Position numbers and translations under genes: made by a program. From assembly GCF_000025865.1 (NCBI RefSeq), contig NC_014002.1, positions 1,116,001 through 1,180,000 on the forward strand: a stretch of DNA of 64,000 nt. The letters run 5' to 3'. Each line of letters opens with the position of its first letter. Positions within the stretch are counted from its first letter, which is position 1. The notes below the pieces were generated by a model. It made no database searches. It was not told where the DNA came from and saw only the letters and a program-made list of their open reading frames with translations. Source of the stretch: Methanohalophilus mahii DSM 5219 (lineage in GTDB: Archaea; Halobacteriota; Methanosarcinia; Methanosarcinales; Methanosarcinaceae). Positions 36,100 through 55,121 of this stretch are shown in pieces.

Positions 36100-37476
36100 T
36101 CAGAATACCAGACCCAGTTCTTCGAGTTTCTTCTTTGCACCGTCATAGACCTTGACGTATTCTTCGGTCGGTGTCACGGTTGCAACATCATAGCATTCCT
36201 GGAAAGTCTTGCCTGCAGGTGCATTGGCATAGTCCTTCTCATAGCTTGCTACAAGTTTATCCAGAATCTGGTTGACAGTATTGATATCCATACCAGCGGT
36301 TGCACGTGCGACCTCACCCATCATACGGGCTTCCATACCGGTTGTCTTGTCAGTGATGACACCCTTGGCGGCTGCAACACCGGACAGGATCTCACGGCCG
36401 GATGCGGTATCTGTAATGGACTGGGCTGCAGCCTCAAGCAGGCACATCTCGGTACATGGACCGGCACATGGATAGTACTGGTTACCGGACAGAAGATCTG
36501 TGAACTCGGAGATGGTGGCACATGCCCAGCCTGCGATCATAAGGGTCTCACGAGTGTTGGTGGAACCCCAGCGGATGTGGACAGGACCATCAAGATGCCA
36601 GCTGGCACTGCTCATGACCATGGAGTTGAGGTGAGTTGCGACATCGACTATGGTTGTTTCCTCTACACCGCCGGCGTAACCACCAAAGATGGGCATCTGT
36701 TCATCCATGATGATGTCGCTGTTACCCTTGTAGTGGGCAATGACAGCGATTGCGTCAAGATCGATCTTGAGCTCGTTCAGCTGGGAGACTTCGTGGCTGT
36801 CGTTGGAGTTCATACCACCGACACAGTCTGCACCGATGTTACCCTGTGCAGACAGGGAAGTCTCAGGGCCCTAAACAGCCATACCTGGACGACCTGCCAT
36901 GGAAGCGGCGGTCCTGATCTGGCGGGTTTCGGATTTGGATGCAAGAACTTCGTAAGGACTGCCGGGGACAGGAGATTTACCACGGGCAGAGGTCATTACA
37001 CCGTTGACGATGGTATCACATTCTTTCTCAAGAGCGTAACTCATGTGCACGGGCATGAAGACATCTTCGGAGATTGGGGAACCGGTTGGACCACCCTGTA
37101 CGATTGGTTTGACCTTGTCACCCACACTGCGCTTGCGGCAGTAAACGGCGTCACGACCACTGCCAAGCTGGAATTCCCTGTGTGGATTGTTGATTGCATC
37201 CCAGATCTCGTCTTCTGTGTATTTGACGATACGATGGGTGTCTGTACACCAGATACCACATTCAAGAAGCATCTCGAAACCGGCTTTGAACAGCCTTTCC
37301 ATCTGATCCTTGTCGGTTGGAACGAATTCCTTACCAAAGTCAAGGTTGTATTTCTGCTTCAGTTCCATTGCCTTCATTGGAATGGTCATCAGGTCCCAGT
37401 CATCCTGGGTGCATTTCTCACCGGTCTGGGCACGGTCATAAAAATCATAGCAAGTTACGGATTTGGTAAATGTCAT
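36100..37476 (-). CDS. mtmB1: Monomethylamine methyltransferase MtmB1 with pyrrolysine at 202
   Basis: 458 residues when the amber codon at 36871-36873 is read as pyrrolysine (O202) in the context PGMAV-O-GPETSLSAQGNIGA. It transfers the methyl group of monomethylamine to the corrinoid of MtmC, the first step of methanogenesis from methylamine; pyrrolysine activates the amine in the TIM-barrel active site. Length, amber position and flanks match MtmB of Methanosarcina. Near-identical to mtmB2; differences cluster around residues 124-143. GGGAGGA precedes the start. It follows mtmC1 by 16 bases. Confidence 0.97.
36871..36873 (-). other. Amber codon decoded as pyrrolysine in mtmB1
   Basis: TAG in the context GCT GTT TAG GGC CCT. 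The open frame continues for 256 more codons with MtmB sequence, so it must be sense. Established for this family. Confidence 0.97.
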
Positions 37477-37492
37477 AAATTATCCTCCCGGT

Positions 37493-38146
37493 TTATTTTT
37501 TCATTAATTCAAGAGCAACGTTGGCTGCCTCAGCTGCGTTTTCTGCTGTTGCGTCAGCACCGATTTCCTTAATCCAGGAATCTGTGACCGGAGCGCCACC
37601 GAACATTACTTTCACAGAGTCCCGCAGACCTTCTTCTTCAAGCAGACGCATGACGTCTTTCTGACCGAGCATGGAAGTGGTCATAAGGGCAGAGCCGGAG
37701 AGCATAAGTTTCTCGCCTTTGTGGGCTGCTACTTCTTCAATGACCTTGTCGTTGGGTACGTCTACACCCATGTCGATAACGGTGAAACCGTTTGCACCGA
37801 GCATGGTTGCAACAAGCCTGTGACCGATGTCATGGATGTCGCCTTCCTGGACGAACTTGATGCAGGTTCCGACGGATTCTGAGGTCTCATCCTCTGCAAG
37901 GATCGGATCAAGAATCTCCATGGCGGCTTTCATGGCCTTGGCAGACATCATGATCTGTGGAAGGTAGACTTCGGCGGCTTCGAATTTGTCACCGATGATC
38001 TTCATACCGACAGACAGACCATCATTGATGATCTCGAAAGGAGTAAAACCTGCATCCAGGGCTTCCTGGACGAGGGGGCCAGCACCATTGATGTCCTGGT
38101 TGACAATCGCATCTCTGAGTTTATCATACATTTCCTGTTTTCCCAT
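37493..38146 (-). CDS. mtmC1: Monomethylamine corrinoid protein MtmC1
   Basis: 217 residues. An N-terminal helical cap (1-85) is followed by the Rossmann-like cobalamin domain, with the base-off ligand H105 in EGDIHDIGHR. SGSALMTTS and FGGAPVT bind the nucleotide tail. It accepts the methyl group from MtmB and passes it to MtbA for coenzyme M methylation. ATG 38146 has GGTGAT upstream; the frame is open to 38278 but that part is leader. The protein is identical by eye to MtmC2. Confidence 0.96.
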   Translation of the reverse strand: MGKQEMYDKLRDAIVNQDINGAGPLVQEALDAGFTPFEIINDGLSVGMKIIGDKFEAAEVYLPQIMMSAKAMKAAMEILDPILAEDETSESVGTCIKFVQEGDIHDIGHRLVATMLGANGFTVIDMGVDVPNDKVIEEVAAHKGEKLMLSGSALMTTSMLGQKDVMRLLEEEGLRDSVKVMFGGAPVTDSWIKEIGADATAENAAEAANVALELMKK

Positions 38147-38588
38147 TAAATCACCTATATCTAACTGTACAACAGCTGTCATATCATGGACTGCTGTTAC
38201 CATGAATTTAAAAAGCAATTGTATATAACCTAGCCGACCACGATTTTTCAATCTACATAAAAATAGTAGACACTTCAATAATTCAAAAAGTAATTCAAAT
38301 TGACAGACGTTAACAAAGCGATCATGGCATTAAAATCGACAACGTTTTTTAAAAACTAAGATACAGCCATTTCACTATAAAGTAGGATTTGTAACCAATT
38401 TCTGATATGGAATTTCTGGAGACTAAGTAAAAATAGGGATTATGTACAATCCATAATAAGCAAACACTTATCCATAAAACCGAAACGAATATGTATCGTT
38501 CTAACTGTATCATTTGTACTTGTTAGATTTACATTAAAGTAATCTAAAAGTATATGGTTAATTCGTGAAAATATCCACGGGTGATAAT
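38147..38588. other. Divergent promoter region between mtmC1 and mch
   Basis: About 440 AT-rich bases. On the mtmC1 side there is a TATA box at 38221-38228 and a leader of roughly 50 bases holding AACAGC/GCTGTT arms. On the mch side a TATA-like AAGTATATGG lies near 38549. No gene was found. Confidence 0.6.
38221..38228 (-). promoter_or_regulatory. TATA box of mtmC1
   Basis: Read on the minus strand as GGTTATATACAATTG; about 75 bases before ATG 38146, so transcription should start near 38197. The leader contains AACAGC and GCTGTT arms 16 bases apart and the Shine-Dalgarno GGTGAT. Confidence 0.55.
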
Positions 38589-47761: not shown

Positions 47762-48157
47762 TTACTCATAAAGCGATATATCATAATCCAGCGCCGTTGT
47801 TCTTTTAGCACATTCACTGCCATTATGTATCATTTCATCTATACTTCTTTTCAAATTGGCAGGATGCATGGCTCCAACATGTGTTTTTATGAGATTTCCA
47901 TCGCAGAAGTAGAGAAATGTGGTAGTGCCCCGAATATTATATCTTGTTGCAATACCGGGATTTTCTCTGGGGTTAACCATCACAAAATTAACTGAATCCC
48001 CATACTGTTTTGAATACTCTCTGAAATGAGGTTCAATAGCCCTGCAATGAGAGGACATGTGGGCAGGAATGCCATAACAAGGGTCGGTTTTTCTCTCTGT
48101 GCAACAATATCCAGCAGTGTACTGTCGGTGGCAGAAGCTATTGATTGATTGATTCAT
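47762..48157 (-). CDS. Thioredoxin-fold protein with two compensating frameshifts
   Basis: The 131-residue frame is open, but only its last two thirds (HCRAIEPHFREY onward, with NIRGTTTFLYF) look like thioredoxin. Between 48140 and 48050 the thioredoxin-like sequence is in another frame (ASATDSTLLDIVAQ, KPTLVMAFLPTCP). Removing 4 bases from the AATC repeat at 48140-48154 and 2 from GAGAGG at 48049-48054 restores a continuous protein with the CPHC redox centre. The present reading therefore lacks the first active-site cysteine. It may be a pseudogene, a phase-variable gene or hold sequence errors. Confidence 0.6.
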   Translation of the reverse strand: MNQSINSFCHRQYTAGYCCTERKTDPCYGIPAHMSSHCRAIEPHFREYSKQYGDSVNFVMVNPRENPGIATRYNIRGTTTFLYFCDGNLIKTHVGAMHPANLKRSIDEMIHNGSECAKRTTALDYDISLYE

Positions 48158-48232
48158 CACTTAATTCTTTTGTATGAACAAAGATAAAGTTTTCTCAAAC
48201 CTTCAGGCATCATCCCGGGAATTATAATGTTC

Positions 48233-48628
48233 TCAATTTTCTTTTTCTTTACGGAATTTGTGAAGCGCGATCTCAATGGTAGTACTTAGATCCTTTTCAG
48301 TAAAAGGCTTAAGTATATATCCATCCGGATCTGTTTCTTTAGCTTTTTTAAAAGTTACATCATCCGAATGGGCCGTAAGATAGACCACCGGAAGGGAAAA
48401 TCTATCTCTGATTATTTTGGTTGCTTCGATACCATTCATGTCCCCTTTAAGCCTGATATCCATAAGCACCAAATCCGGGAATGTCCCTTCTACCTTAGTA
48501 ATAGCATCCCTTCCTGTAGAGGCAACGCCTGAAACAATATAACCCAGATCTTTCAAACGGCGTTTTATTACCATTGCCACTATAGCTTCATCTTCTACAA
48601 CCAGTATTCGTGATTTATTCAATATCAC
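48233..48628 (-). CDS. Response regulator, receiver domain only
   Basis: 131 residues. VVEDEAIVA at the start, phosphorylated aspartate about D56 in LVLMDIRLKGDMNG, threonine in YLTAHSDD and lysine in LKPFTEKDL. Its ATG overlaps the stop of the histidine kinase gene (ATGA), so it is the kinase partner. It has no output domain and should act through protein contact, possibly with the Msr regulators encoded upstream. Confidence 0.92.
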   Translation of the reverse strand: MILNKSRILVVEDEAIVAMVIKRRLKDLGYIVSGVASTGRDAITKVEGTFPDLVLMDIRLKGDMNGIEATKIIRDRFSLPVVYLTAHSDDVTFKKAKETDPDGYILKPFTEKDLSTTIEIALHKFRKEKEN

Positions 48629-50808
48629 ACCTCTTTTTCCCTAAAAGTAATCCTGAAACAGGTCCTGTAATCTGTAGTATCAAGTTCAATATCCCCATCG
48701 ATCTGGCTTACAAGATTGGAAACAAGTTGTAAGCCCAGTGAGTCGGTATTTCTGAAGTCGATATCAGCCGGGAAGGCACCTCCCGAATCTTCAACCTTTA
48801 GTATGAATTGACCTGCATACTTAAAAAAGTCAATGTTAATAACTCCATTCTCACCCTCAATAAAAGCATGTTGCAAAGCATTTGAAGTCAATTCATTAAT
48901 GATAATGCCCAGAGGTACGGCAGAATCCATATCCAGATATAGATTCTCGACATTAAGATGAATTTTGATAGTATCCTCGTCAACATTATAGGAATTGATG
49001 AGATGTTCAACAAGATCTTCGACATAATCCGATAAATTGAGACTGGTGAGGTTTTCTGAATGATACAGCTTTTCATGGATCAGGGCAATTGAACGTACTC
49101 TGTTCTCACTTTGCTTGAAGGCCTCCATAACTTCATCCGATTTAAAATTGAGAGATTCAAGGTAAAGAAGACCGGAAACGACCTGCAAATTATTTTTAAT
49201 CCTGTGATGGATCTCCTTAATTCGAATCTTTTCCATCTTTTTCAAAGTCTCTTCGGCCTTTTTACGTTCATTGATATCCAGAATAATCCCCTGTAATTTA
49301 TTTGATGAATTTGCAGAAAAACTACCAATAAAAGTTCTCTCCTCAACCCACTTGACCTCTCCGTCCCTTGTAATTATGCGATATTCATAATTAAATTCCT
49401 TATCGCCTCTGTTAACTGCTTCAAGGAGTTTTTGCTCAACATTTTCAAGATCTCCAGGCACTACTATATCCGCATAGGTAATATGACCATTTGTAAACTC
49501 ATCCTGAGTATAACCAAACTGGGAAATGTTCCTGGATACAAATTCTACCGGCCAATTCTTCTGGGACTTCCACTTGAATACGACTACAGGGCTGCGGTTT
49601 ACTACAGCTTCCATTTCTGCACGCAACCGGTTTGCGTCCTGCAAGCTATCAAGGACCTCATTGAGTCCTTCCGGAATCTTCTTGAAATCAATGTCTACAT
49701 CAGTATTTGCCCTGATGTCAAGATCGCCTTTAAGAGCTGAATCCGAAATAGTCCTGAACTCATCCACAATCCCGTTTATCCGATTGGTAAAAGAGGCTGC
49801 AATAAGATATGCCATCAGTCCCATAAAAACGATGGAAAATGTATAGATCGTGAACAACATCGACCTTAAGGAAGCTACACCTGCAAATATTTCATCCTTC
49901 GGAACAGAAAGAAGAATTGAATAATTGCCCGTGGATATGGGTTCATAAAAGAGTATCACATCTTCCCCATTTGACGGGTCAATGATATCGACATGACCAT
50001 TTTTGCCCTTTTCAATATCACTGGCAACCTCATGAAAGACGGGATTGTCAAAGTCCCTGAGCGTTTTGGAACTAATCCAATCCTTCCTTGTTGGATGGGA
50101 AACAATAATCCCCGTATTACTTACCATAAACAGATAACCGGTCTCAAACGCTTTGACACTACTAACCGTATTGTCTACGTAATCCAGACTTACATCCACC
50201 CCGCCTATACCTATGAATTCATCGTTCTCAATTATCGGAGAGACATAACTCACAAGAAATGCACCCTGATAATAATAGGGTTCGGTTAATTCATCCTGTT
50301 TTGTCCGTTTGGGCAACTGGTAATAATCTGATGTACTGTAATCAACAAGCGGCTCAACATCTACATCCCCCCCAATCCTGTTCCAGTAGGGAAGAAACCT
50401 GCCCGTTTTATCATGAGCGATGGTATTTATGTACCGTTCATCCTCTCCATCAAAAGCATCAGGCTCAAAGCCACTATAAGTTCCTATCAGCTGAGGATTA
50501 TCCTCAAGTATACAGCGTATTACATCGCTGGCTTCCTCTCTTGTAGAAGAGTCATGAATAACGCCCATTGTGGTGGCTATATCCCTTGCAATGGCCATAT
50601 TGGACTTCATATCTGCATTGAATTGATTGGCATAACTTTGTGCCATTTTAGAAGACTGGTCATAAGCAAGCTGTTCCTCCTGAAAAGTAACCGTTGATAT
50701 GACTACTGAAGATGAAATAGACAGGATCAGAAAAACACTTACCACAATATACAGAACAAGTTTAAACCTGAGTGACAGGTCTTTCCATGCCAAATCACTC
50801 ACTTCCAT
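48625..50808 (-). CDS. Cache-PAS histidine kinase, linked to Msr regulators
   Basis: 727 residues. A membrane helix at about 15-38 leads to a large extracellular dCache sensor (about 45-310), a second helix at about 318-342, a HAMP-like linker, a PAS domain (about 405-520) and a HisKA_2-type kinase with EIHHRIKNN (phospho-histidine 534 or 535), N box INELTSNAL near 639 and VEDSGG near 672. It senses an external small molecule. It overlaps the upstream Msr gene by 14 bases. In Methanosarcina acetivorans kinases MsmS and RdmS sit beside Msr genes, but those use GAF/PAS haem sensors. The mtmCB2 context makes methylamine a candidate ligand, which is inference. Confidence 0.9.
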   Translation of the reverse strand: MEVSDLAWKDLSLRFKLVLYIVVSVFLILSISSSVVISTVTFQEEQLAYDQSSKMAQSYANQFNADMKSNMAIARDIATTMGVIHDSSTREEASDVIRCILEDNPQLIGTYSGFEPDAFDGEDERYINTIAHDKTGRFLPYWNRIGGDVDVEPLVDYSTSDYYQLPKRTKQDELTEPYYYQGAFLVSYVSPIIENDEFIGIGGVDVSLDYVDNTVSSVKAFETGYLFMVSNTGIIVSHPTRKDWISSKTLRDFDNPVFHEVASDIEKGKNGHVDIIDPSNGEDVILFYEPISTGNYSILLSVPKDEIFAGVASLRSMLFTIYTFSIVFMGLMAYLIAASFTNRINGIVDEFRTISDSALKGDLDIRANTDVDIDFKKIPEGLNEVLDSLQDANRLRAEMEAVVNRSPVVVFKWKSQKNWPVEFVSRNISQFGYTQDEFTNGHITYADIVVPGDLENVEQKLLEAVNRGDKEFNYEYRIITRDGEVKWVEERTFIGSFSANSSNKLQGIILDINERKKAEETLKKMEKIRIKEIHHRIKNNLQVVSGLLYLESLNFKSDEVMEAFKQSENRVRSIALIHEKLYHSENLTSLNLSDYVEDLVEHLINSYNVDEDTIKIHLNVENLYLDMDSAVPLGIIINELTSNALQHAFIEGENGVINIDFFKYAGQFILKVEDSGGAFPADIDFRNTDSLGLQLVSNLVSQIDGDIELDTTDYRTCFRITFREKEV

Positions 50809-51616
50809 TTATGATTTCAGCCAGCATCTCAGAGGAAACAGGAACAGAAAGATCACAACAATAAACAAATAGTTGTGTCCCCCATTCAATTGAACCTTCA
50901 GTGAAACTTATTATGTCCCTGTGGTCATACATATGTGATTTATTGAAAAAACAGAAGTAAGTAAAATCGTCACCAATAGTTAATGAAGGAATGTAGTCGT
51001 TTTCCCGCAAAAGCCTGACATCAACATTTGACCGCTCGATCAATTTTTGCATATCTGAAGGCGATTGTGCCAGTATTCTCTCCATTACTGAACCCGTAAA
51101 AACCAATTCCAGATTCTTGCCTTGAGAAGAGAGGGAATTAAAAACTTCAACATGATCAGGATGGAAAAAAGAAATCAGAGATTTAATGTAGTTGGATTTA
51201 AGCATATTTGAATGCAACTGCGGCTGCAGATCATACATGTGGTCAAGATCGGGTTCAATGACTTCAACTGCACCCAACTGACCTATATTTTCCAGTAAAT
51301 GACGGGGAATTACATCCATATCACGTGTTTCCCAGTAATATTCTTTGGAATCAAAAACATCAAGCATACATACAAGGGGTGACAGGTTTTCAACTATTAA
51401 CCGCCCGGTAGTCGTAAGATCATAGATTCCCTCGTCATCTTTGGAGACAAGACCTTTTTCCCTTAGTTTTTTGATTTGAGGAAGAATGGAGGATGAGGTT
51501 ACATTAAGGTGGTTTTTTACCTTTTTAATATCAGTGGGACCTTCAAGCAAGAGCAAAAGGAATCTTTCCCTCTTGTCGGAAAGAAATATAGTGTCAATAA
51601 GTTCCTCTGGAGCCAT
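50795..51616 (-). CDS. Msr-type methyltransferase regulator (HTH + FilR1/DUF1724)
   Basis: 273 residues. Winged helix at about 10-75 (DIKKVKNHLNVTSSSILPQI), then the DUF1724 methanogenesis-regulator domain to the end. This is the Msr family that controls methanol and methylsulfide methyltransferase genes in Methanosarcina. It is adjacent to a second Msr gene (10-base gap) and to the kinase, downstream of mtmB2, so regulation of mtmCB2 is likely. Confidence 0.88.
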   Translation of the reverse strand: MAPEELIDTIFLSDKRERFLLLLLEGPTDIKKVKNHLNVTSSSILPQIKKLREKGLVSKDDEGIYDLTTTGRLIVENLSPLVCMLDVFDSKEYYWETRDMDVIPRHLLENIGQLGAVEVIEPDLDHMYDLQPQLHSNMLKSNYIKSLISFFHPDHVEVFNSLSSQGKNLELVFTGSVMERILAQSPSDMQKLIERSNVDVRLLRENDYIPSLTIGDDFTYFCFFNKSHMYDHRDIISFTEGSIEWGTQLFVYCCDLSVPVSSEMLAEIINGSE

Positions 51617-51626
51617 TCAATATCCC

Positions 51627-52409
51627 TCAAATTTCAATCTTTTCACAAAGAGAGCAATAATAGTCGAAAAGCTCCCCTCCCCATTTCAGGGCACTCTCAT
51701 CAAAACTCATTATATCTTTATGATCATAACGGCCGTTTTTATCAAGAAAACTTATGTAAGTAAAACGATCTGAAGTGTCAAGGCCCGGGGGTCTGCAATT
51801 TTCCGGGAAAATATACACATGAATATGTGGAGCCCTTATAAGACGGGCCATTTTAGAATCACAGGACTGTTTCATTCTTTCAAAAACCGGTGGCGTCATG
51901 ATCAAAGACATGCTCTCTGCATGTTCCATTAATTCACAATAAATATCAGGATATTCCGGTCGGTAAAAGGAGATTATCGATTTTATATTTTTGGACTTGA
52001 GCAGGTTTTCAGTGAATTCCCGGGGGATTTCAAATGTATGGTTTAAATCAGGTTCAATCAAAAGGTAATTCCCAAGTTCATACAGTCTGCGAAATAATTT
52101 TGGTGGTAGTTCACTTAAGTCATGTGCTTCCAGATAGGTATCATCATTGCTCACCATCTCTATCGTATTCAAAAGAGGAAGCATTTTCTCAACAATTAGT
52201 TCTCCGATGGTGGAAAGACAGTATTGTTCATTCTCTTCGACTATAAGGTACTTCTCTTTCAGTTTTTTAATCTGGGGCATCATCCCCCTGGAAGTCACAT
52301 TCAGAGATGTCTTTATCTGATCGATGTTCCTGGGGCCTTCCATTAAAAGAAGCAAGAGATTCAATCTCTTATCGGAAAGCCAAACTGTATCACTTAGCGA
52401 AGAACCCAT
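51627..52409 (-). CDS. Msr-type methyltransferase regulator, second copy
   Basis: 260 residues from ATG 52409 (MGSSLSDTVWLSDKRLN); the frame is open to 52502. Same architecture as its neighbour: winged helix (NIDQIKTSLNVTSRGMMPQI) and DUF1724. The two are paralogues but clearly diverged. A TATA-like TTTTTTATACAG sits about 50 bases upstream, inside the mtmB2 terminator region, so the regulator-kinase unit has its own promoter as well as possible read-through. Confidence 0.88.
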   Translation of the reverse strand: MGSSLSDTVWLSDKRLNLLLLLMEGPRNIDQIKTSLNVTSRGMMPQIKKLKEKYLIVEENEQYCLSTIGELIVEKMLPLLNTIEMVSNDDTYLEAHDLSELPPKLFRRLYELGNYLLIEPDLNHTFEIPREFTENLLKSKNIKSIISFYRPEYPDIYCELMEHAESMSLIMTPPVFERMKQSCDSKMARLIRAPHIHVYIFPENCRPPGLDTSDRFTYISFLDKNGRYDHKDIMSFDESALKWGGELFDYYCSLCEKIEI

Positions 52410-52470
52410 TATATCAGAATAGCTGTTGGAAGTGGATATTATTAATAGTTTCTGTATAAAAAAGGAAAAA

Positions 52471-52497
52471 CAAGATCGGTATATGACACCGATCTTG
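52471..52497 (-). terminator. Hairpin after mtmB2
   Basis: CAAGATCGGT (52471-52480) pairs with ACCGATCTTG (52488-52497), a perfect 10-bp stem, followed on the minus strand by TTTTTCC. It is placed like the hairpin after mtmB1. Confidence 0.78.
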
Positions 52498-52507
52498 ATC
52501 AATGGTC

Positions 52508-53884
52508 TTAGAATACCAGACCCAGTTCTTCGAGTTTCTTCTTTGCACCGTCATAGACCTTGACGTATTCTTCAGTCGGTGTCACGGTTGCAACATCATA
52601 ACATTCCTGGAAAGTCTTGCCTGCAGGTGCATTGGCATAATCGCCTTCATAGCTTGCTACAAGTTTGTCCAGAATCTGGTTGACAGTATTGATATCCATA
52701 CCAGCGGTTGCACGTGCGACCTCACCCATCATACGGGCTTCCATACCGGTTGTCTTGTCAGTGATGACACCCTTGGCGGCTGCAACACCGGACAGGATCT
52801 CACGGCCGGATGCGGTATCTGTAATGGACTGGGCTGCAGCCTCAAGCAGGCACATCTCGGTGCATGGACCGGCACATGGATAGTACTGGTTACCGGACAT
52901 AAGGTCGGTGAACTCGGAGATGGTGGCACATGTCCAACCTGCGATCATAAGGGTCTCACGAGTGTTGGTGGAACCCCAGCGGATGTGGACAGGACCATCA
53001 AGGTGCCAGCTGGCACTGCTCATGACCATGGAGTTGAGGTGAGTTGCGACATCGACAATGGCTGTTTCCTCTACACCGCCGGCGTAACCACCAAAGATGG
53101 GCATCTGTTCATCCATGATGATGTCGCTGTTACCCTTGTAGTGGGCAATGACAGCGATTGCGTCAAGATCGATCTTGAGTTCGTTCAGCTGGGAGACTTC
53201 GTGGCTGTCGTTGGAGTTCATACCACCGACACAGTCTGCACCGATGTTACCCTGTGCAGACAGGGAAGTCTCAGGGCCCTAAACAGCCATACCTGGACGA
53301 CCTGCCATGGAAGCGGCGGTCCTGATCTGGCGGGTTTCGGATTTGGATGCAAGAACTTCGTAAGGACTGCCGGGGACAGGAGATTTGCCACGGGCAGAGG
53401 TCATTACACCGTTGACGATGGTGTCACATTCTTTCTCAAGAGCGTAACTCATGTGTACGGGCATGAAAACGTCTTCGGAGATTGGGGAACCGGTTGGACC
53501 ACCCTGCACGATTGGCTTTCTCTTGTCGCCTACTTCACGTTTTCTCATGTAAACGGCGTCACGACCAGTACCAAGCTGGAATTCCCTGTGTGGATTGTTG
53601 ATTGCATCCCAGATCTCGTCTTCTGTGTATTTGACGATACGATGGGTGTCTGTACACCAGATACCACATTCAAGAAGAAGTTCGAAACCGGCTTTGAACA
53701 GCCTTTCCATCTGATCCTTGTCGGTTGGAACGAATTCCTTACCAAAGTCAAGGTTGTATTTCTGCTTCAGTTCCATTGTCTTCATTGGAATGGTCATCAG
53801 GTCCCAGTCATCCTGGGTGCATTTCTCACCGGTCTGGGCACGGTCATAAAAATCATAGCAAGTTACGGATTTGGTAAATGTCAT
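52508..53884 (-). CDS. mtmB2: Monomethylamine methyltransferase MtmB2 with pyrrolysine at 202
   Basis: 458 residues with the amber codon at 53279-53281 read as pyrrolysine. Same reaction as MtmB1. Amino-acid differences from MtmB1 are few and mostly in one patch: SGRDAVYCRKRSVGDKVK in MtmB1 against TGRDAVYMRKREVGDKRK here; the rest is nearly identical also at DNA level, which indicates recent duplication or gene conversion. It follows mtmC2 by 17 bases and is followed by Msr regulators instead of a permease. Confidence 0.97.
53279..53281 (-). other. Amber codon decoded as pyrrolysine in mtmB2
   Basis: Same context as in mtmB1, GCT GTT TAG GGC CCT, followed by 256 sense codons of MtmB. Confidence 0.97.
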
Positions 53885-53901
53885 AAATTATCCTCCCGGT
53901 T

Positions 53902-54555
53902 TTATTTTTTCATTAATTCAAGAGCAACGTTGGCTGCCTCAGCTGCGTTTTCTGCTGTTGCGTCAGCACCGATTTCCTTAATCCAGGAATCTGTGACCGG
54001 AGCGCCACCGAACATTACTTTCACAGAGTCACGCAGACCTTCTTCTTCAAGCAGACGCATGACGTCTTTCTGACCGAGCATGGAAGTGGTCATAAGGGCA
54101 GAGCCGGAGAGCATAAGTTTCTCGCCTTTGTGGGCTGCTACTTCTTCAATGACCTTGTCGTTGGGTACGTCAACACCCATGTCGATAACAGTGAAACCGT
54201 TTGCACCGAGCATGGTTGCAACAAGCCTGTGACCGATGTCATGGATGTCTCCTTCCTGGACGAACTTGATGCAGGTTCCGACGGATTCTGAGGTCTCATC
54301 CTCTGCAAGGATCGGATCAAGAATTTCCATGGCGGCTTTCATTGCCTTGGCAGACATCATGATCTGTGGAAGGTAGACTTCGGCGGCTTCGAATTTGTCA
54401 CCGATGATCTTCATACCGACAGACAGACCATCATTGATGATCTCAAAAGGAGTAAAACCTGCATCCAAGGCTTCCTGGACGAGGGGGCCAGCACCATTGA
54501 TGTCCTGGTTGACAATCGCATCTCTGAGTTTATCATACATTTCCTGTTTTCCCAT
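53902..54555 (-). CDS. mtmC2: Monomethylamine corrinoid protein MtmC2
   Basis: 217 residues, by eye identical to MtmC1, including H105 in EGDIHDIGHR; only scattered synonymous base changes were seen. It carries the methyl group from MtmB to the coenzyme M methyltransferase. GGTGAT lies before ATG 54555, preserved from copy 1, but the sequence beyond diverges at once, so the two copies have different promoters. Confidence 0.96.
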   Translation of the reverse strand: MGKQEMYDKLRDAIVNQDINGAGPLVQEALDAGFTPFEIINDGLSVGMKIIGDKFEAAEVYLPQIMMSAKAMKAAMEILDPILAEDETSESVGTCIKFVQEGDIHDIGHRLVATMLGANGFTVIDMGVDVPNDKVIEEVAAHKGEKLMLSGSALMTTSMLGQKDVMRLLEEEGLRDSVKVMFGGAPVTDSWIKEIGADATAENAAEAANVALELMKK

Positions 54556-54710: not shown

Positions 54711-55121
54711 ATGTCAAAAAAAGAAATGTATCCTATTAAAGAAAAGATGAGCATGGAAAGCCTGGAAAAAAGGATAAGATACATTGAATACCTTACAAAA
54801 GTTTTGACCAGATTGTACTTCATAAAATATCGATACAAAGGTTTTTCAGTGGAAGAATCTGCAAAAAAAACAGGCGTCACAAAAAGGATTGGCTACATAT
54901 GGCAGAGAAGATGGAATCGTGATGGATATCCCGGATTATTCCCAAAATATGGGGGTGGCAGACCTTCAAAGCTCAGTGAAGAACAGAAATACGAACTGAA
55001 AAATATACTTCGGGAAAAAAAGAAATGGAAAACTTCTGATGTAAAGGCAATTATAAAAGAAAACTTTAATGTGGATTATTCATTAAAACAAGTAAAAGTG
55101 ATAATTGATTCCTTATCCTGA
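54711..55121 (+). CDS. HTH protein like the N-terminus of IS630-type transposases
   Basis: 136 residues with two helix-turn-helix units (FSVEESAKKTGVTKRIGYIW and WKTSDVKAIIKENFNVDYS) separated by the GGGRPSKLS linker. This is the DNA-binding half of IS630-family transposases; the DDE catalytic half is missing after the TGA. Either a domesticated stand-alone regulator or a transposon remnant. It starts at ATG 54711 (after AAAGGAC) and is divergent to mtmC2. Confidence 0.7.
   Translation: MSKKEMYPIKEKMSMESLEKRIRYIEYLTKVLTRLYFIKYRYKGFSVEESAKKTGVTKRIGYIWQRRWNRDGYPGLFPKYGGGRPSKLSEEQKYELKNILREKKKWKTSDVKAIIKENFNVDYSLKQVKVIIDSLS

Follow-up and report, generated by a model that had tools for sequence, protein, structure and literature searches.

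A candidate amine-sensing two-component system with paired Msr regulators beside the second monomethylamine methyltransferase operon of Methanohalophilus mahii

Which signal, and which promoter, do the regulatory genes beside the second monomethylamine methyltransferase operon (mtmCB2) of Methanohalophilus mahii DSM 5219 serve? The operon lies in a window of 64,000 nucleotides (contig NC_014002.1; G000:C1:1116001-1180000 of the 2.01-Mb genome) together with genes for two Msr regulators, a sensor histidine kinase and a receiver-only response regulator (Table 1). Methylamines are a major non-competitive source of methane in saline sediments and, while methanol and methylsulfide enzymes are known to be under Msr control, the switching-on of methylamine enzymes is poorly known. 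We propose, with rather more confidence than doubt, that the regulatory genes form a two-component system that senses amines and works through a 'split FilR1' (receiver together with Msr) to control the mtm operon or operons that it adjoins.

Table 1. Features of the mtmCB2 locus and of the other mtm copy, in window positions.
Feature	Position	Strand	Basis or remark
mtmC2, monomethylamine corrinoid protein	53902..54555	-	Pfam matches to B12-binding_2 and B12-binding
mtmB2, monomethylamine methyltransferase, in-frame UAG (pyrrolysine) codon 202	52508..53884	-	MtmB family match; 458 aa when TAG is read through
Terminator-like 12-bp hairpin and U-tract directly 3' of mtmB2	52459..52497	-	Stem 52497-52471
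TATA-like box of the putative msr operon, CTATTAATAATAT, 27-39 nt before the msr-1 ATG	52436..52448	-	Sequence; kept across the genus in gap sequences
msr-1 ('mtm_first' type), winged helix-turn-helix (HTH) and FilR1_middle	51627..52409	-	PF08350 2.5e-35; separate clade of the Msr tree
msr-2 ('mtm_second' type), winged HTH and FilR1_middle	50795..51616	-	PF08350 8e-29, HTH_5
Sensor histidine kinase, 727 aa, membrane-anchored: dCache_1 (about residues 38-318), PAS_3, HisKA_2, HATPase_c	48625..50808	-	Pfam
Receiver-only response regulator, 131 aa	48233..48628	-	Response_reg 8e-25; kept behind the kinase in relatives
mtmC1-mtmB1, second operon copy, different promoter	36100..38146	-	
Element CGGCTAGGTTATATA before mtmC1, at the TATA box	38222..38236	-	Recurs in several genera at one of the mtm copies
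Small HTH_32/HTH_23 protein divergent from mtmC2	54711..55121	+	Pfam; same place in G001, G004, G005, G006, G007 and the g3 genomes

A preliminary description of the locus gave the minus-strand order as mtmC2, mtmB2, msr, msr, kinase, receiver, with gaps or overlaps of -14 to about 100 bases, and asked for comparison with related methanogens. The genes do follow one another head to tail in this order, with spacings (from mtmC2 to the receiver) of +17, +98, +10, -14 and -4 nt. Four other genomes of the genus have the same six-gene order and spacing, and the arrangement is also kept in a fifth, as far as the locus could be matched; because it is kept across the genus, the arrangement is not a matter of chance. 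In other genera the module still adjoins mtm genes, with differences in orientation and in the intervening genes. For msr-1 the mechanical start (TTG at 52502) gives too long a protein, relatives beginning MGSSLSD. A PYLIS_1 match lies within mtmB2 at 53182-53281. Behind the receiver a thioredoxin-like gene (47762-48160) occupies the same place in four members of the genus, at an identity (52-88%) far below that of its neighbors.

The question of the signal turns on the sensor. Pfam confirms the combination of dCache sensor and HisKA_2 core ascribed to the kinase, and the HisKA_2 H-box, KEIHHRIKNNLQ, is intact. Residues 38-319 match the PDB entries 3LIB and 3LI8, both Methanosarcina mazei kinases (E about 1e-110 to 1e-109). 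The first of these was studied as target R1 by Cerna-Vargas et al. 2023 (PMC10104139): it is the M. mazei histidine kinase WP_011034866.1, for which isothermal titration calorimetry gave dissociation constants of 0.53 µM for dimethylamine, 10 µM for trimethylamine, 19.6 µM for ethylamine and 35 µM for methylamine, and which bound neither choline nor betaine (PMC10104139). The window sensor is about 59% identical to 3LIB, and in the pocket region the two proteins agree at 32 of the 33 inspected positions (the exception is Leu185 for Met). The dCache_1AM type is defined by a dCache_1 domain with the amine-motif residues of PctD (R103, D133, W155, F188, S217, D235): the window kinase carries R90, D120, W142, Y162/Y163, S187 and D205, identical to 3LIB, although the mapping from PctD was by constant sequence offsets and alignments with PacA and 9HEH, not by superposition, and the equivalent of W155 could be either Y141 or W142. 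Because the sensor is ~60% identical to an amine-binding domain and keeps its amine-pocket residues, the earlier guess of an outside ligand, with methylamines the obvious candidates, is well supported; family-wide linkage to methylamine genes (see below) points the same way. Methylamines are thus the likely ligand of the window kinase, on the strength of sequence comparison. Among the inspected positions no residue separated mtm-linked from mtb-linked sensors. The 3LI8-type and barkeri-type sensors of Methanosarcina have Cys (in one case Tyr) at position 142, where R1 has Trp142 (L182-L191; L173, L175-L179, L181, L190): their amine binding may for this reason be lost or changed.

How would such a signal reach the mtm genes? 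The receiver gene overlaps that of the kinase by 4 nt on the same strand, and its product consists of a PF00072 domain (residues 8-118) in which D57, T85 and K107 are present. Both Msr proteins (260 and 273 aa) score above cut-off for PF08350 and match in the HTH region, the winged HTH (wHTH) plus FilR1_middle/DUF1724 combination by which Msr proteins are recognized; by Pfam they lack a receiver (REC) domain, REC being a separate gene. In Methanosaeta harundinacea the same parts form one protein, FilR1, of the composition wHTH-DUF1724-REC (PMC5847659), whose partner FilR2 is REC-only (PMC3991700). Communication between the receiver and the Msr proteins is proposed chiefly because the window has the parts of FilR1 as separate genes. 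In the circuit that we infer, the extracytoplasmic dCache domain would bind a methylated amine, and the signal would cross the membrane and reach the HisKA_2/HATPase core by way of the PAS domain; the kinase would phosphorylate the receiver-only protein, and the phospho-receiver would act on both Msr regulators, which together would switch the mtm operon or operons. Receiver plus Msr would then be a split form of FilR1, in which wHTH and DUF1724 are fused to the receiver. The ligand of the window protein, the phosphotransfer, the contact between receiver and Msr, and the exact promoter addressed are all predicted elements of this scheme.

Four described systems come nearest to the proposed one. 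The FilI/FilR1/FilR2 system (PMC3991700) likewise combines a membrane kinase and a REC-only protein with a wHTH-DUF1724 regulator, whose targets are methanogenesis genes (a putative role in the window). It differs in that the receiver of FilR1 is fused and FilI has CHASE4 and HisKA, whereas the window has dCache and HisKA_2, with Msr and REC apart and no receiver on the DNA-binding regulators themselves. The MsrA-H proteins of Methanosarcina acetivorans, with the kinases MsmS and RdmS, also combine wHTH and DUF1724, lie beside methyltransferase genes, are often paired (MsrA acts with MsrB on mtaCB1, and MsrD with MsrE on mtaCB2; PMC3960522) and have a sensor kinase nearby; their known targets, however, are methanol and methylsulfide genes, and MsmS and RdmS are cytosolic PAS/GAF redox sensors, RdmS lacking an H-box, whereas the window kinase is membrane-bound with a dCache ectodomain and an intact H-box. 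With M. mazei R1/3LIB (PMC10104139) the window kinase shares the sensor family, the amine-pocket residues, a HisKA_2-type kinase core and a site beside a methylamine methyltransferase operon; R1, however, is longer and lies behind mtbCBP (dimethylamine) with no adjacent msr of its own, while the window kinase is mtm-linked and accompanied by two Msr and one receiver. The remaining comparison is M. mazei MM2441/sRNA162 (PMC3510493): MM2441 is an ArsR-type regulator proposed for mtmB2C2, mtmC1 and mtbC1, but it is controlled by a small RNA and no linked kinase has been described (PMC3510493).

A search with the 3LIB domain gave matches in 96 of 112 Methanosarcinaceae genomes, and regions from a selection of the matching genomes yielded a neighbor table of 83 dCache kinases, each labeled by the methyltransferase genes within 8 kb and by the number of same-strand msr genes. 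Mtm genes with two msr were found for 19 kinases, Mtb with one for 23, both with one for 4, and Mtb with none for 5; among kinases with neither, 20 had no msr, 11 had one and a single kinase had two. No mtm-only module had one Msr, and no mtb-only module had two. Of the 66 kinases with a HisKA_2 core, 56 lie near mtm or mtb genes or the associated permease genes, as opposed to 0 of the 17 HisKA-type kinases, which are without the HisKA_2 H-box (Fisher p 4e-11, a purely descriptive value since the rows are related genomes). Half of the ten HisKA_2 exceptions (L054, L055, L057, L182, L203) are at contig ends. The msr, kinase and receiver genes occur together with nearby methylamine genes in 48 of the 66 HisKA_2 loci. 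The Msr proteins themselves fall into corresponding types – mtm-first, mtm-second and single (mostly mtb-linked) – with 4 label changes on the tree against a shuffled mean of 36.5.

The table also bears on whether adjacency could simply be inherited genome order with no functional meaning. All loci come from one family, in which near relatives share order by descent. The mtm-linked kinases, though, are spread over three sensor-tree clades (one uniting the window genus and g3, at 99/96 support; g5 with g14; g7), so that adjacency persists across separate kinase lineages and outlasts changes of orientation, side and intervening genes between genera: we consider mere inheritance very improbable. 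In the Methanosarcina loci examined no module stood beside mtm; in M. mazei (G110, a 100% match to 3LIB) R1 lies directly behind mtbCBP, and the same region holds the 3LI8 kinase in an msr-kinase-REC-REC set. A scan of named GTDB genomes with the kinase alignment, in which H-box peptide matches predominated, gave at least two near relatives among the matches listed, both Methanomethylovorans.

The preliminary description called the six genes one strand-wise unit; this holds for strand and position but probably not for transcription. Directly after mtmB2 stands a terminator-like hairpin of -16.1 kcal/mol (z -4.1; 0 of 200 shuffles as stable). The window genome and five further members of the genus share this hairpin, and G006 and the g3 genomes have a different but equivalent one. 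The conserved hairpin and U-tract suggest that mtmCB2 and msr-msr-kinase-receiver are probably separate transcripts, and a single operon of mtmC2, mtmB2 and regulators is accordingly unlikely; CTATTAATAATAT is the candidate promoter of the msr operon. A sigma-70-type promoter scan of the kind not meaningful for archaea stayed at shuffle level. In the g3 genomes msr-1 lies 0.9-3 kb from mtmB, in most with an mtmP-like permease between, and in g5, g14 and g7 module and mtmC are transcribed divergently. What is conserved is the neighborhood, not a common transcript.

The window holds two possible mtm targets. The coding DNA of mtmCB1 and mtmCB2 is 97.4% identical but the upstream regions bear no relation to each other, a pattern suggestive of gene conversion between two copies under separate regulation. 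In the genus mtmCB2 is the operon nearest the module, whereas in the g3 genomes and G006 the module lies between both copies. The element CGGCTAGGTTATATA recurs, slightly altered, before one of the mtmC copies in G006 and the g3 genomes, and is not found before mtmC2; it is possibly a regulator site joined to the TATA box. In M. mazei MM2441 is the proposed repressor of mtmB2C2 and activator of mtmC1 and mtbC1 (PMC3510493), and opposite control of the two mtm copies is therefore possible. The target promoter may be that of mtmCB2, of mtmCB1 or of both, control of mtmCB2 in particular being a presumption from position. A third MtmB-family gene of the genome, at L231:8987-10360 (G000:C1:1403986-1405359), lacks the amber codon, has Val at the pyrrolysine site by eye, and adjoins a divergent gene resembling a BCCT-type betaine transporter; it is possibly a non-pyrrolysine methyltransferase for another amine.

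Control of mtmCB2 could also lie with the small HTH_32 protein (54711-55121), the msr/kinase module being unrelated. Members of the genus and the g3 genomes keep this gene in divergent orientation to mtmC2, and the gap is only 155 nt. HTH_32/HTH_23, however, resembles the DNA-binding parts of transposases, and g5, g14 and g7 still have the msr/kinase module at their mtm loci, where this gene was not seen; we regard control by this protein as quite unlikely. In appearance it is a transposase DNA-binding part turned resident gene.

Several points weigh against the split-FilR1 proposal itself. R1 prefers dimethylamine over monomethylamine ~66-fold (PMC10104139); the counts in the neighbor table, its rows being related genomes, are not independent tests; a terminator separates mtmCB2 from the regulatory module; and mtmCB1 is an equally good target. 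For the hybrid kinase MA4377 of M. acetivorans, preliminary data excluded Msr from the phosphorelay (PMC11784639). Lastly, the AlphaFold model of msr-2 (pLDDT 89) was likened in a fold search to archaeal TrmBL2, TrmB and PLD-like folds and not to a receiver, with TM-scores of about 0.4, so that the matches indicate a fold class only; one of them, 2f5t, is the sugar-binding domain of TrmB (a sequence search of the PDB gave mostly HTH matches). Because of this predicted resemblance, what Msr responds to may instead be a cytoplasmic effector.

In one alternative the inputs run in parallel: the Msr pair would be one-component regulators of mtm, responding to a cytoplasmic effector such as corrinoid or thiol state, while kinase and receiver would drive another output (a phosphorelay hub, taxis), and the genes would be clustered since all serve growth on methylamines. 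The MA4377 data, the absence of a receiver domain from Msr, the link of MsrC to the heterodisulfide state (PMC11619418), and the TrmB-like fold, a domain that TrmB uses for ligands, would all suit it. Opposed to it are the (near) overlap of msr, kinase and receiver genes, their joint occurrence in most HisKA_2 loci, and the fusion of the same parts to REC in FilR1; we judge parallel inputs rather unlikely. To much the same degree we doubt that amines are sensed on behalf of targets elsewhere (mtmCB1P, mtb/mtt, pyl or transport genes), with mtmCB2 a mere neighbor. The terminator, the recurrence of CGGCTAGGTTATATA across genera in mtmC1-type promoters where mtmC2 promoters differ, and the position between both copies in g3 and G006 are in keeping with such targets, but in the g3 genomes, and in all members of the genus with an upstream match, it is the mtmCB2-type copy that has the module downstream of it.

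Returning to the split-FilR1 proposal, its general idea is not new, since Cerna-Vargas et al. 2023 have already published that R1 is encoded with the dimethylamine methyltransferase and probably regulates it (PMC10104139). No description of the mtm-linked dCache/Msr module, of the rule of two Msr with mtm and one with mtb, or of the HisKA_2 association was found in the open-access literature. This rule predicts target specificity, and the best reading of the twin-Msr form is a module devoted to monomethylamine. A more specific version can be offered as a tentative suggestion, one we doubt more than we believe: that Methanosarcinaceae outside Methanosarcina have a monomethylamine-dedicated circuit, in which a dCache_1AM HisKA_2 kinase and a receiver acting non-covalently on a TrmB-fold Msr pair would switch mtm, alongside a paralogous single-Msr circuit for dimethylamine (mtb), individual methylamines being read before import. 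The locus is a compact, testable candidate with a ligand-binding homolog and a matched paralog for the next substrate; if the proposal is true, it would provide a route from receiver-only protein to DNA-binding regulator, a step that is an open question in the two-component signaling of archaea.

The paralog in the window genome is an msr-kinase-receiver set divergent from mtbC-mtbB (L038; MtbB by PF09505); the mtb-linked paralog of the kinase is at G000:C1:513755-515980. The genome also encodes two HisKA-type dCache kinases, in L041 and L043, that lack such neighbors. At L041:6290-10839 (G000:C1:1496289-1500838) a divergent Msr-like gene, a receiver-like gene and the HisKA-type dCache kinase lie beside a cobalamin biosynthesis cluster, and the L041-type kinase with its opposite-strand Msr gene recurs in G003, G006 and G007.

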